A DNA stretch of 64,000 nucleotides from Candidatus Zixiibacteriota bacterium (lineage in GTDB: Bacteria > Zixibacteria > MSB-5A5 > WJJR01), in assembly GCA_040752595.1 (NCBI GenBank), contig JBFMGX010000004.1, forward strand, positions 281,440-345,439, written 5' to 3'. This document shows, in pieces, positions 15,277-32,199 of this stretch. Each line of letters opens with the position of its first letter. Position 1 is the first letter of the stretch. The position numbers and the translations under genes are program-made. Under the pieces are notes generated by a model. That model worked only from the letters and a program-made list of their open reading frames with translations, made no database searches and was not told the DNA's origin.

Positions 15277-16352
15277 GCGACCGGCTCCGGCTGACGTGTG
15301 GCGAGACTCATCGTGTACAGAGAGGGTGTGGCGGCGGCCGCCAGAGCGGCCTCGGTCGTGATGACGCCTTCGTCGGTCAGTTGTGCCAGGTGATGTTCGA
15401 GTAACTGCATGCCCTCGCGACGTCCGGTCTGGATCGCCGAGATGAGTTGATGTGTCTTCCCTTCCCGGATCATGTTCGCGATCGCGGGGGTGTTGAGCAT
15501 GATCTCCATCGCCGCGATCCGTCCGGTGCCGTCGGCGCGACGCAGCAACTGCTGCGCCAGCACGCCGCGCAGTCCCTCCGAGAGCAGCACCCGGGTCTGG
15601 GCCTGTTGGTCGGCCGGGAAGGCGTCGATGAGCCGATTCACGGTCTGGGCGGCGTTCTTCGTGTGCAGCGTGGCGAAGACACACAGCCCAAGCTCGGCGG
15701 CAGTCAGGGCGAGGTGGATCGTCTCCAGGTCGCGCATTTCACCAACGAGGACGACATTGGGATCTTCACGCAATGAAGCGCGCAACGCGCGGGCGAAATC
15801 GCGTGTATGGCTGCCGACCTGGCGCTGGTTGATCAGGCAGCGCTTGTTGACGTGGACGAATTCCAGCGGATCTTCGAGCGTGATGATGTGCCTGCCTTGC
15901 GTTTCATTGAGGTGATTGATCATCGCCGCCAGGGTCGTCGACTTCCCGGAGTTGGTCGGTCCGGTGACGAGAACAAGACCGCGAGTCGTTTCGGCCAGGC
16001 GCGTGACCACTTCGGGGAATCCCAAGGCGGCCAGCGTCGGCGGCTCCTCCGGAATCAGACGCAGAACCGCCGCCGGTCCGCGATGGTCGCGGAAGACATT
16101 GACGCGAAACCGGGCGTAGCCCGGGATCGTATGCGCCGTGTCCAGGTCCCACTGGCTTTCGAACGATTCGATCTGTTCGCTGGACAGGATCTCATAGACC
16201 AACAACTCGACCTCAGGAGCGGCCAGGGGACGATCATTGGCGGGGACCAGCTCGCCGCGGATGCGGAAGGTCACCGGCGCCGCCGTGACGAGATGCACGT
16301 CGGAGGCATCCAACTCCTTCATGTGCCGGAGAATGTCATCGATCTGCGGCAT
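15273..16352 (-). CDS. pilT: PilT-family pilus retraction ATPase
   Basis: This 359-residue hexameric motor ATPase depolymerises type IV pili at the inner membrane. The N-terminal PAS-like part carries the family hallmark MKELDASDVHLVTAAPVTFRIRG (residues 11-33, motif LxxSDxH). The Walker A is VTGPTNSGKST, the Asp box VLVGEMRDLETIHLALTAAE, and the His box FATLHTKNAAQTVNRLID. The family C-terminal element is GRIAAMEIMLNTPAIANMIREG. AGGAGG sits a few bases before the ATG at 16352. It overlaps the MshEN/DUF4388 gene by four bases. No pilin or assembly ATPase is in the window, so the paralogue (PilT or PilU) is not resolved. Confidence 0.93.
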   Translation of the reverse strand: MPQIDDILRHMKELDASDVHLVTAAPVTFRIRGELVPANDRPLAAPEVELLVYEILSSEQIESFESQWDLDTAHTIPGYARFRVNVFRDHRGPAAVLRLIPEEPPTLAALGFPEVVTRLAETTRGLVLVTGPTNSGKSTTLAAMINHLNETQGRHIITLEDPLEFVHVNKRCLINQRQVGSHTRDFARALRASLREDPNVVLVGEMRDLETIHLALTAAELGLCVFATLHTKNAAQTVNRLIDAFPADQQAQTRVLLSEGLRGVLAQQLLRRADGTGRIAAMEIMLNTPAIANMIREGKTHQLISAIQTGRREGMQLLEHHLAQLTDEGVITTEAALAAAATPSLYTMSLATRQPEPVA

Positions 16353-16498
16353 CGTCCCTCCTGGGGCCAGGGAAGCCCCCATCATCTCCATTTTCGGCTG
16401 TTGGGGGCATGCGGATGAGCGGGGCAGGTTACGACCGAGCCTAGTGCTGAAAGATCGGACAGACGGTGCAGGACATTGCATCTGCTCGGATGCCTGTG

Positions 16499-16592
16499 GA
16501 AAAGCAGATTCCTCGCTACGCTCGGAACGACAGGCTCACGACGGGAACCCGCCATCTTCCTGTCACCCCGAGCGCAGCGAGGGGTCTGCTGT
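16499..16592. repeat. Inverted pair of CCCGAGCG-type repeats
   Basis: Two oppositely oriented copies of an element centred on CCTCGCTACGCTCGG and CCCGAGCGCAGCGAGGG flank a GGCTCACGACGGGAACC spacer in the 480-base gap upstream of lemA. The arms extend through AGCAGATTCC and GGGGTCTGCT. Related elements lie at 37245, 38300, 48580 and 59143. Confidence 0.75.
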
Positions 16593-16835
16593 TCGCGATG
16601 CGCTTTGCTGTCGGTGGTCAATGCACAATCGGGCTCAACTGAGTTTGCCGGTGGCCGCGCCCGGTGAATCGCCCTTGCCCGATGCTCTCAACAGCGGCTT
16701 ATTGCCGTGGCATCGGCGGACATCGACCGGGGGAGCGAAACACATGGAGCGACCGCACGTAATATCACCCTGATTTCCGACGATGACTCATGATATATCC
16801 CATCACGTTCACGTTGGGGAGGGGAAGGAGTCACC

Positions 16836-17405
16836 ATGCTGGGATTCTTCATCTTTCTGGGACTGCTCGTCGTCGTGGCCTTCTGGGTCATCGGCATCTA
16901 CAACGCGCTGGTGCGCCTGCGCGTGCAGTGCGACAATGCCTGGTCCGACATCGACGTGCAGTTGAAGCGGCGCTATGACCTGATCCCGAATGTCGTGGAG
17001 ACGGTCAAGGGGTATGCCACGCACGAGCGCAAGGCGTTCGAGGACGTCATCAACGCCCGGGCCCGTGCCATGTCGGCGCAAGGTCCGGCGGCCAAGGCCG
17101 AGGCGGAGAACATCCTCACGGGCACGCTGAAATCGCTGTTTGCGTTGGCGGAGAACTACCCGCAGCTCCGGGCGATCGAGAGCTTCACCCAATTGCAGTC
17201 CACGCTCTCCGAGATCGAGGAGTTCATCCAAAGCGCGCGCCGGTACTACAACGCGGTCGTCCGCGATCTGAACACGCGGATTGCGATCTTCCCGTCGAAC
17301 ATCATCGCCGGTATGTTCGCCTTCAAACCGCGCGAGTTCTTCGAGCTGGAGACACCGGCCGAGCGGGTGGCGCCGAAGGTCAACTTCGAAACCGAAAAGG
17401 CGTAG
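16836..17405 (+). CDS. lemA: LemA family protein
   Basis: This 189-residue protein has an N-terminal membrane anchor (residues 2-24) followed by the LemA helical bundle. Family signatures are YNALVRLRVQCDNAWSDIDV, QLKRRYDLIPNVVETVKGYA and LQSTLSEIEEFIQSARRYYN, ending with FPSNIIAGMFAF. A GGGGAGGGGAAGGAG tract precedes the ATG. LemA proteins face the periplasm or outside and their molecular function is unsettled. The next gene is a DUF2207 protein, the usual partner arrangement, and the two are probably cotranscribed despite a hairpin repeat between them. Confidence 0.93.
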   Translation: MLGFFIFLGLLVVVAFWVIGIYNALVRLRVQCDNAWSDIDVQLKRRYDLIPNVVETVKGYATHERKAFEDVINARARAMSAQGPAAKAEAENILTGTLKSLFALAENYPQLRAIESFTQLQSTLSEIEEFIQSARRYYNAVVRDLNTRIAIFPSNIIAGMFAFKPREFFELETPAERVAPKVNFETEKA

Positions 17406-19313: not shown

Positions 19314-19485
19314 GGGGCGAGGCGCTGCCTCGCCCTTCGACCCAACGAACAAGGGCGACCCACCGGGTCGCCCCTACAACCGAGGACATGTGCGGGCGTG
19401 GCCGCGATCTGTGATCGCGGTCCCGCGAAGCGGGACAATCACAACGCGCCGCACGCCGCGATCAGAGATCGCGGGCACACACACC
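19314..19485. repeat. Palindromic repeat cluster upstream of convergent glnA
   Basis: GGGGCGAGGCGCTGCCTCGC (19314 onward), then GGGCGACCC/GGGTCGCCC closing with CCTAC (19357-19377), TCCCGCGAAGCGGGA, and CCGCGATCAGAGATCGCGG near 19457-19475. All are perfect or near-perfect dyads; the last also occurs at 38169 and 59327. Confidence 0.8.
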
Positions 19486-30566: not shown

Positions 30567-30655
30567 GAGGAATGTCTGTCCTCCTATGAATCCGTGTGCC
30601 GTCAGGAGGACAGGCATTCCTGCCTGTCTGGGGCGACCCAACGGGTCGCCCCTAC
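30567..30655. repeat. Inverted repeats downstream of hisS
   Basis: GAATGTCTGTCCTCCT and AGGAGGACAGGCATTC (about 30571-30617) form a 16-bp stem with one mismatch. A GGGGCGACCC/GGGTCGCCCC hairpin closing with CTAC follows and runs up to the hisS stop. Confidence 0.8.
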
Positions 30656-32079
30656 GACTCGGCGAGGTCCTTCAGGATCGACTTCACTTCTGCGATCAGG
30701 TCGGAACGGGGGATCGTTCTTTGGCCGACGCGTTTCTCGACCCACTCCTGGCGGTCTTTGGTCTGCACCTTCTGTGTCTCGATGACCTTCAGGTTCTTGA
30801 TTGAGACCTGGTCGGATGCGAATTCATTCGAGCCGGCAATCACAGCGATCGGAATCTCCAATCGGTCGGCGTACTTGAGTTGCTTGCCGATGGAAGTCGC
30901 CTCACCGGTGTACATCTCAGTATGGATACCGGCTGAACGCAGCTCATGCGCCAGCCGGGCGTAGTCAACAATCCGATCTTTGTCCATCACGGTCACGATG
31001 ACATCCGCGGTCGAGGGGCGCATACGGAAGCCATCGAGACGTTGCACGGCGGCCACCAGCCGGTCGATTCCGATCGAGGCCCCGGTGGCGGGGACAGGCG
31101 TGCCGGTGAAGGCGCCGATCAGCCCATCGTAGCGGCCGCCGCCCATGACGCTGCCAATCCCGGCGGTGCGCGGGTCGGTCAGCACCGCCTCGAACACGGG
31201 GCCGGTGTAGTAGTCGAGTCCCCGTGCAATACTAACGTCAATAGCAGCGTCGTTACGATCAATGCCCAGCGCGTCAAGATACTCATGAATCTCGCGCAGC
31301 TCGCCGATGCCCTCCTCGGCACCGGAGACATTGCGGAAGAGGGCGCCCACGTCGCGCAGAACCTCCGTGCGCAAACCGGCGGGAATGGCGAGAAACGCTT
31401 CGAGCCGATCGATCTGTTTCTTGTCCAGGCCCAGGCCGGGAATCAACGCGCCGGAGTCATCCTTGCGCCCCGGCCCGAGCTCGAGACGCACGGCGTCCCG
31501 TCCCTGTTTCTCGAGTTTGTCGAGCACGCGGAAGACGGCATGCGCCATGCCGGCGGGAATGCCCGCGTACGACAGCAGACTGTTCAGGATCTTGCGATTG
31601 CTGAAACGGATCCGCGAGGCCAGCCCGAGACGTGCAAACGACTCATGGATGGCGGCGATGATCTCGGCGTCGGCGATCATCGCGTCGGTGCCGACGGTGT
31701 CGATGTCGAACTGGATGAACTCACGGAAGCGGCCGGGATCGGGCTTGTCGAATCGCCAGACCGGCTGGATCTGATAGCGCTTGAACGGACGGGGGAGGTC
31801 GACATACTGCGCGACGACACGCGACAGCGGGGCGGTCAGATCGAAGCGCAGGCCGACGCGGTTCCCCTCGGGCTCGTCGAACATGTAGATCTGCTTGCTG
31901 GTCTCCTCGCCATAAGCCAGCAACGTCTCCCTGTATTCCAGCGCCGGCGTCGCCAACGGCGCAAAGCCGTACGACTCATAGACCTCGCGCACCTGCGCGG
32001 TGATCCGTTCCCGCAGCAGCATCTCACCGGGCAGCAGATCGCGAAAACCCTTGAGGAGCTTCGGTTCTACCGGAGGCAT
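30652..32079 (-). CDS. hisS: Histidyl-tRNA synthetase, alpha-proteobacterial-like type
   Basis: This 475-residue class II synthetase charges tRNA-His. Motif 2 reads PVWRFDKPDPGRFREFIQFD followed by IDTVG. The histidine-specific elements are VSIARGLDYYTGPVFE and motif 3 GASIGIDRLV. The C-terminal anticodon-binding domain (ADVIVTVMDKDRIVDYA) ends near residue 440. Motif 2 with PGRFREF-QFDxDTVG resembles the alpha-proteobacterial HisRS type rather than the classical bacterial form (GRYRQFHQ). GGGAG lies 7 bases before the ATG at 32079. The gene is 31 bases downstream of tRNA-His on the same strand, so the pair may be cotranscribed. Confidence 0.93.
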   Translation of the reverse strand: MPPVEPKLLKGFRDLLPGEMLLRERITAQVREVYESYGFAPLATPALEYRETLLAYGEETSKQIYMFDEPEGNRVGLRFDLTAPLSRVVAQYVDLPRPFKRYQIQPVWRFDKPDPGRFREFIQFDIDTVGTDAMIADAEIIAAIHESFARLGLASRIRFSNRKILNSLLSYAGIPAGMAHAVFRVLDKLEKQGRDAVRLELGPGRKDDSGALIPGLGLDKKQIDRLEAFLAIPAGLRTEVLRDVGALFRNVSGAEEGIGELREIHEYLDALGIDRNDAAIDVSIARGLDYYTGPVFEAVLTDPRTAGIGSVMGGGRYDGLIGAFTGTPVPATGASIGIDRLVAAVQRLDGFRMRPSTADVIVTVMDKDRIVDYARLAHELRSAGIHTEMYTGEATSIGKQLKYADRLEIPIAVIAGSNEFASDQVSIKNLKVIETQKVQTKDRQEWVEKRVGQRTIPRSDLIAEVKSILKDLAES

Positions 32080-32110
32080 GCGCATTCTCCCTATTTCGTG
32101 GAAAGAAAGA

Positions 32111-32184
32111 TACCGGCGTCGGGGGTCGAACCCAAGACCTCCTGATCCACAGTCAGGCGCTCTAACCAACTGAGCTACGCCGGC
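32111..32184 (-). tRNA. tRNA-His (anticodon GTG)
   Basis: This 74-nt cloverleaf has acceptor arm GCCGGCG/CGCCGGT, D arm GCTC/GAGC, anticodon stem CCTGA/TCAGG with loop CTGTGGA, and T arm TTGGG/CCCGA with TTCGACC. Base -1 would be T and the discriminator is A73, so the canonical G-1:C73 identity pair is not encoded. CCA is not encoded either. It lies directly upstream of hisS on the same strand. Confidence 0.95.
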
Positions 32185-32199
32185 ACGTTGCCCCGCACG

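Follow-up and report, generated by a model that had tools for sequence, protein, structure and literature searches.

A Linked tRNA-His/HisRS Pair with G1-U72 and A73 in a Zixibacteria Genome: Probable Horizontal Acquisition and Displacement of the Resident Pair

Introduction

A tRNA-His gene and the neighbouring hisS gene, contained in a 64,000-nucleotide stretch (the window) of the genome of a Candidatus Zixiibacteriota bacterium (GCA_040752595.1, here G000), very probably represent a linked, G-1-independent tRNA-His/HisRS pair, which would have been acquired horizontally and would have displaced the resident pair. The recognition chemistry is already known from Caulobacter, where the identity of the pair depends on A73, U72 and the anticodon (PMC9976931) and where the pair is orthogonal to that of E. 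coli (PMC3875453). For another alphaproteobacterium, G1:U72 and A73 were described as the critical elements (PMC7590224). The distribution of the pair, its linkage and its replacement within a genus appear to be new. The part of the literature that was accessible contained no reports from bacteria outside the Alphaproteobacteria, although an earlier mention elsewhere is possible; likewise, it yielded no reports of frequent linkage, within-genus replacement, the clade-specific insert or the extra tRNA states described below.

The tRNA-His Gene and the Adjacent hisS Gene

The tRNA-His(GTG) gene is located on the minus strand at 32111–32184 (ARAGORN span 32109–32185), with G1 at 32184 and A73 at 32111 according to the cloverleaf geometry. 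Its acceptor stem, GCCGGCG/CGCCGGT, contains seven pairs, the last of which is a G1-U72 wobble; A73 is followed by encoded TCT, and CCA is not encoded. An earlier note on this DNA had described T at position −1 (32185) and A as the discriminator, and both ARAGORN and the geometry confirmed this, i.e., T-1 and A73 are found in place of the canonical G-1:C73. The U72 opposite G1, present together with A73, had not been mentioned in that note; the G1-U72 pair is a key determinant in the Caulobacter system. Taken alone, the encoded −1 base is weak evidence, since several sampled alphaproteobacterial tRNA-His genes of the U72/A73 type encode G at this position. Minimum-energy folding of the transcript did not yield a cloverleaf, which was derived from ARAGORN and alignment; unmodified tRNA transcripts commonly miss the cloverleaf in such folding. 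A second tRNA-His was not found in the genome, as judged by a pattern search and by two emptied syntenic sites (see below).

The hisS gene is located on the same strand at 30652–32085 and encodes 477 amino acids from the ATG at 32085 (PF13393 and PF03129). Homologues begin at the ATG at 32079; counted from there, the spacer to A73 (32080–32110, minus strand) measures 31 bases, in agreement with the distance and the common strand reported previously. The protein scored 371 bits against TIGR00442 (cut-off 286.75) and is the product of the sole full-length hisS in the genome, two other weak TIGR00442 matches being profile fragments. Its catalytic and HGTP anticodon-binding domains are normal, the AlphaFold2 model had a mean pLDDT of 88.8, and the best PDB matches were the human and the Elizabethkingia HisRS (6NHI).

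Motif 2, with the loop for the tRNA acceptor end (RFDKPDPGRFREFIQFDIDTVG, amino acids 111–132; 31690–31755, minus strand), is of the PGR type, as had been noticed before, and the enzyme has neither a Q118-type motif 2 nor a place in the classical clade. Residues D116 and P117 align with Q118 and K119 of the E. coli enzyme; the site of the Gln which contacts C73 is occupied by Asp116 in the window and, within the U72/A73 clade, mostly by G, also by D, N, E or A. A C-terminal insert (DRQEWVEKRVGQRTIPRS, amino acids 444–461; 30703–30756, minus strand), which is typical of the U72/A73 clade, was modelled as a short helix plus a strand; the confidence of the model is lower near residues 441–450.

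A search for a second hisS or a Thg1-like protein, which had been proposed as a check, detected neither in the genome; the PF04446 profile for Thg1 gave no match here and did match in a control genome. Eukaryotic-type histidine identity combines A73 with a G-1 added by Thg1, the enzyme not found in G000. A perfect inverted repeat, GGGCGACCC-RNN-GGGTCGCCC, is present directly after the hisS stop codon (30631–30651) and again at 19353–19373, which exceeds shuffle expectation; it may be a shared hairpin element or a terminator.

Types of HisRS and tRNA-His

Both tRNA-His and HisRS were read in relatives from the class (up to 58) and, in addition, in sampled Alphaproteobacteria, Planctomycetes and Coatesbacteria. 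This survey, which the earlier note had recommended for relatives, showed that the tRNA state tracks the HisRS type: in the sampled Zixibacteria, Coatesbacteria, Planctomycetes and Alphaproteobacteria, the type of tRNA-His was predicted by the type of HisRS, and only five changes among five tRNA states were required on the HisRS tree. Counted as genome handles (with one genome represented twice), G-1 G1:C72 C73 was found in 65, T-1 G1:U72 A73, the commonest encoded −1 state among U72/A73 genes, in 39, and encoded G-1 with G1:U72 A73 in 7; C-1 G1:C72 A73 (Phycisphaerae and a planctomycete) and G-1 C1:G72 C73 (Planctomycetes) were found in five each. The combination G-1 G1:U72 U73 was present in two distinct genomes of family f2, and there were a few other states besides.

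The loop of HisRS paired with U72/A73 tRNAs reads in nearly all cases KP-x-(P or L)-GR, followed by REF-x-QFD-x-D; in enzymes paired with G-1:C73, of classical and eukaryote-like (QCD) types alike, the loop mostly starts with Q. A Gln of the motif-2 loop contacts G-1:C73, and Gly is found there in alphaproteobacteria (PMC3937112). Motif 2 alone was rejected as a sufficient predictor of identity, since REF-Q-D-D-G is common to the whole eukaryote-like HisRS superclade, and since a planctomycete (G236; L193) pairs a PGR loop with a G-1:C73 tRNA; the HisRS of this planctomycete is without the C-terminal insert.

Several further combinations were observed. Two genomes of the window's order (G007 and G008; L086:2158 and L087:2325) possess a tRNA-His with encoded G-1, G1:U72, U73 and encoded CCA, together with a HisRS of the U72/A73 clade; two G-U pairs would be possible at the end of this tRNA, and no description of a U73 discriminator for tRNA-His was found in the literature searched. 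The C-1 G1:C72 A73 tRNA-His (L011, L013, L014, L129, L132) is accompanied by a HisRS with the motif-2 loop DNPYEKRGR, which is two residues longer and resembles the eukaryotic DNPAMTRGR; C1:G72 with G-1:C73 (L252–L256, five Planctomycetes) goes with the loop ESPA(R/K)GRFREFWQ. The alphaproteobacterium G161 contains two full-length HisRS genes (C51:219903-221354 and C24:209589-211025; 45% and 42%, respectively, to the window enzyme).

In those Zixibacteria for which both genes could be placed, hisS was immediately preceded by tRNA-His, in the same orientation, in 10 of the 22 non-canonical genomes, from five families, and in none of the 24 canonical ones (Fisher p 1.6e-4, from a hand tally which counts genomes as independent despite their kinship). 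Similar linkage was seen in Coatesbacteria, several Planctomycetes and one Pelagibacterales MAG. Linkage is frequent and not required, since the pair is unlinked in the whole Zixibacteria family f8, in most sampled alphaproteobacteria and in G007 of the window's order, whose tRNA has U73.

Phylogeny of HisRS

The enzymes paired with U72/A73, C72/A73 and U72/U73 tRNAs formed one clade (FastTree support 1.0), and the same non-C73 clade was obtained with an SH-aLRT of 100 when the motif-2 loop was masked. An insert of 18–20 residues before the last helix was present in all HisRS of this clade that were displayed, in degenerate form in the Pelagibacterales enzyme, and absent from every C73-type HisRS displayed. 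The HisRS phylogeny had been set beforehand as the refuting test; it placed the window enzyme in a clade with the alphaproteobacterial enzymes and not with the classical ones, which, including those of its congeners, lie on the opposite side of the longest internal branch.

Within the clade, the window HisRS groups with those of G047, G007, the Coatesbacteria genome G058, UBA9088 and two other MAGs. Its nearest relatives belong to Zixibacteria, Coatesbacteria and unclassified MAGs (57–67% identity), and alphaproteobacterial HisRS are about 40–45% identical to it; the term "alpha-proteobacterial-type", used in the earlier note, is therefore apt for the kind of enzyme and does not apply to its source. 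The alphaproteobacterial enzymes themselves nest within the non-C73 clade, among HisRS of planctomycetes, Zixibacteria and Coatesbacteria. A tree constrained to join them to human HARS is worse by 74 log units and was rejected (AU p 4e-6), and so was a tree with the non-canonical Zixibacteria HisRS constrained to be monophyletic, which is worse by 410 log units (AU p 1.9e-5); the former test is less secure than the latter, since the human branch is long and the trees were "quick". A HisRS of the window's close clade was also encountered on a very short contig titled Nitrospira sp. (L008; SBAY01000079.1, 3485 bp), which probably reflects misbinning rather than evidence for Nitrospirota.

Comparison with Known Systems

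The alphaproteobacterial pair (Rhodobacteraceae, Rhizobiales, Caulobacterales and most SAR11, e.g., Caulobacter crescentus) shares G1-U72, A73 and the lack of G-1:C73 with the window pair, and its HisRS shares the PGR motif-2 loop, the C-terminal insert and the clade. In contrast, the window genes are linked, being 31 bases apart, Asp116 is found where the alphaproteobacterial enzymes have Gly, and the window kind occurs outside the Alphaproteobacteria, sporadically and within one genus. The canonical E. coli type has a class II HisRS, the HGTP anticodon-binding domain and the GUG anticodon in common with the window pair, but differs by G-1:C73, G1:C72, a Q118-containing motif 2 and the absence of the C-terminal insert, with the deepest branch of the tree between the two. 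Human HARS and Elizabethkingia 6NHI, the nearest solved structures, belong to the same broad HisRS superclade and fold, and A73 is present in eukaryotic tRNA-His, too; human HARS and the Bacteroidetes-like enzymes differ in having no insert, and 6NHI-type loops read QKGR. A transfer from eukaryotes was considered unsupported in a previous study, which suggested convergence (PMC5370408).

Replacement of the Pair within the Genus

The genome of the window was compared with those of two congeners (G001, G002) and four confamilials (G003–G006). All six carry a classical HisRS, and their tRNA-His has G-1:C73 in every genome where it was found. The order M48/TolB-like gene, hisS, aspS is conserved in all six, with PhoH next after aspS where the contig extends. 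In G000, hisS is missing from this site: about 0.5 kb separates the M48/TolB gene from aspS, whose identity to the G001 aspS is 81%. A tRNA array Pro(TGG)-Arg(TCT)-His(GTG) is situated beside rdgB in G001, G002 and G004; at this site in G000, which shares its contig with the window, only Pro and Arg are present, with conserved flanks. Judged by gene order, the ancestral histidine pair was lost and a linked foreign one took its place, since both old loci survive, each minus its histidine part only. A search for a relic of a canonical tRNA upstream of LemA (window 16301–16900) gave nothing above shuffles.

The window tRNA-His is identical in 73 of 75 positions to that of G047, from another family, although the latter comes from a contig of 4 kb in a MAG that is 79% complete; misbinning is possible there, which makes its host unsure. 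Identity is 89% to the tRNA-His of Coatesbacteria G058 and 65–68% to those of the window's own family. Orthologues at 75% of the prolyl oligopeptidase beside the pair were confined to another genus, where the surroundings differ, which leaves no counterpart of the insertion point for comparison. No mobile-element genes were detected among the neighbouring proteins scanned. A foreign base composition of hisS was not seen; it is native-like, so that a transfer would be without trace there. The proposal of a co-inherited, possibly transferred identity system gained support from the linkage in several phyla and the near-identical tRNA in another family; transfer is also backed by the loss of both ancestral parts at syntenic sites and by the rejection of a single Zixibacteria clade.

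Alternative Explanations and Proposed Mechanism

The order's other sampled family (G007, G008) also has a U72-type tRNA-His and a HisRS of the clade, as would be expected if the ancestor of the order had possessed the U72/A73 pair, which was kept here, while the other family members regained a classical pair. Such vertical inheritance is distinctly improbable: the six other members of the family share the hisS-aspS synteny, and a single clade unites their classical enzymes; G000 keeps both loci minus their histidine parts, which suggests former presence; and the HisRS of G007 and G008 are not sisters in the trees, their tRNAs having U73. A change of the identity rules of the resident canonical pair in place, with a convergent resemblance to alphaproteobacteria, would have a parallel in the convergence of A73 between alphaproteobacteria and eukaryotes suggested earlier (PMC5370408), but the deepest split of the tree separates the window HisRS from that of its congeners, the clade-specific insert is common to the window enzyme and those of other phyla, and the resident loci were emptied rather than altered; this possibility appears exceedingly remote.

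The G000 genome is a draft of 50 contigs, and binning or assembly could in principle have brought in the pair from another organism. Misbinning is, however, very unlikely, since one contig of 514 kb (C4) carries the new pair and the emptied array, as well as family-syntenic genes; moreover, the genome (2.94 Mb) has a completeness rating of 100%, a contamination of 0.45% and no other hisS. A different question is whether U-1 stays on the mature tRNA, facing A73, and is tolerated by a HisRS of relaxed specificity, which would accept N-1 and would not be truly G-1-independent. That T-1 facing A73 is the commonest arrangement in U72/A73 tRNA-His, and that an eighth pair would be possible, speaks for this; on the other hand, G, C and A at −1 are also encoded with U72/A73, which indicates that this base is not strictly constrained, and the −1 residue was reported to be absent in the alphaproteobacterial system (PMC6471195). 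We regard retention of U-1 as unlikely.

For the preferred reading, a horizontally acquired and G-1-independent pair, the observations comprise the sequences, their covariation, the phylogeny, the linkage and the absence of the resident parts from their syntenic sites; the recognition chemistry, the donor, the succession of events and a transfer in a single piece of DNA are what we infer. By analogy, the window pair would follow the Caulobacter-type recognition rule, since it belongs to the same clade and has the same tRNA features. HisRS would recognise the G1-U72 wobble, A73 and the GUG anticodon, and not G-1:C73; RNase P would cleave the tRNA-His precursor at +1, the 3' end would be finished by the CCA-adding enzyme, and addition of G-1 would be unneeded. 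A linked pair, once arrived, would be functional immediately and would cause no mischarging in the presence of the resident one; since the two would be nearly orthogonal, they could have coexisted. Subsequently, either pair could be lost; here, the resident classical hisS (by aspS) and the G-1:C73 tRNA-His would have been deleted.

Conclusions

It seems rather likely that histidine identity in bacteria consists of transferable orthogonal pairs, with a linked U72/A73 pair which crosses phyla and can displace the canonical one; the alphaproteobacterial system would then be one offshoot of a bacterial pool, neither a single invention within the class nor a eukaryotic gift. The data suggest that an entire tRNA identity system can pass between bacterial phyla as a unit. 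At least four phyla contain the U72/A73 system, which switches inside a single genus; it is therefore transferable and weaker as a phylogenetic marker, and it has bacterial relatives. The genomes of this genus offer a clean natural before/after comparison of tRNA identity replacement, and the many HisRS/tRNA-His pairs, including those with U73, with C72/A73 and with C1:G72 and C73, should be useful in studies of tRNA recognition and of orthogonal pairs.
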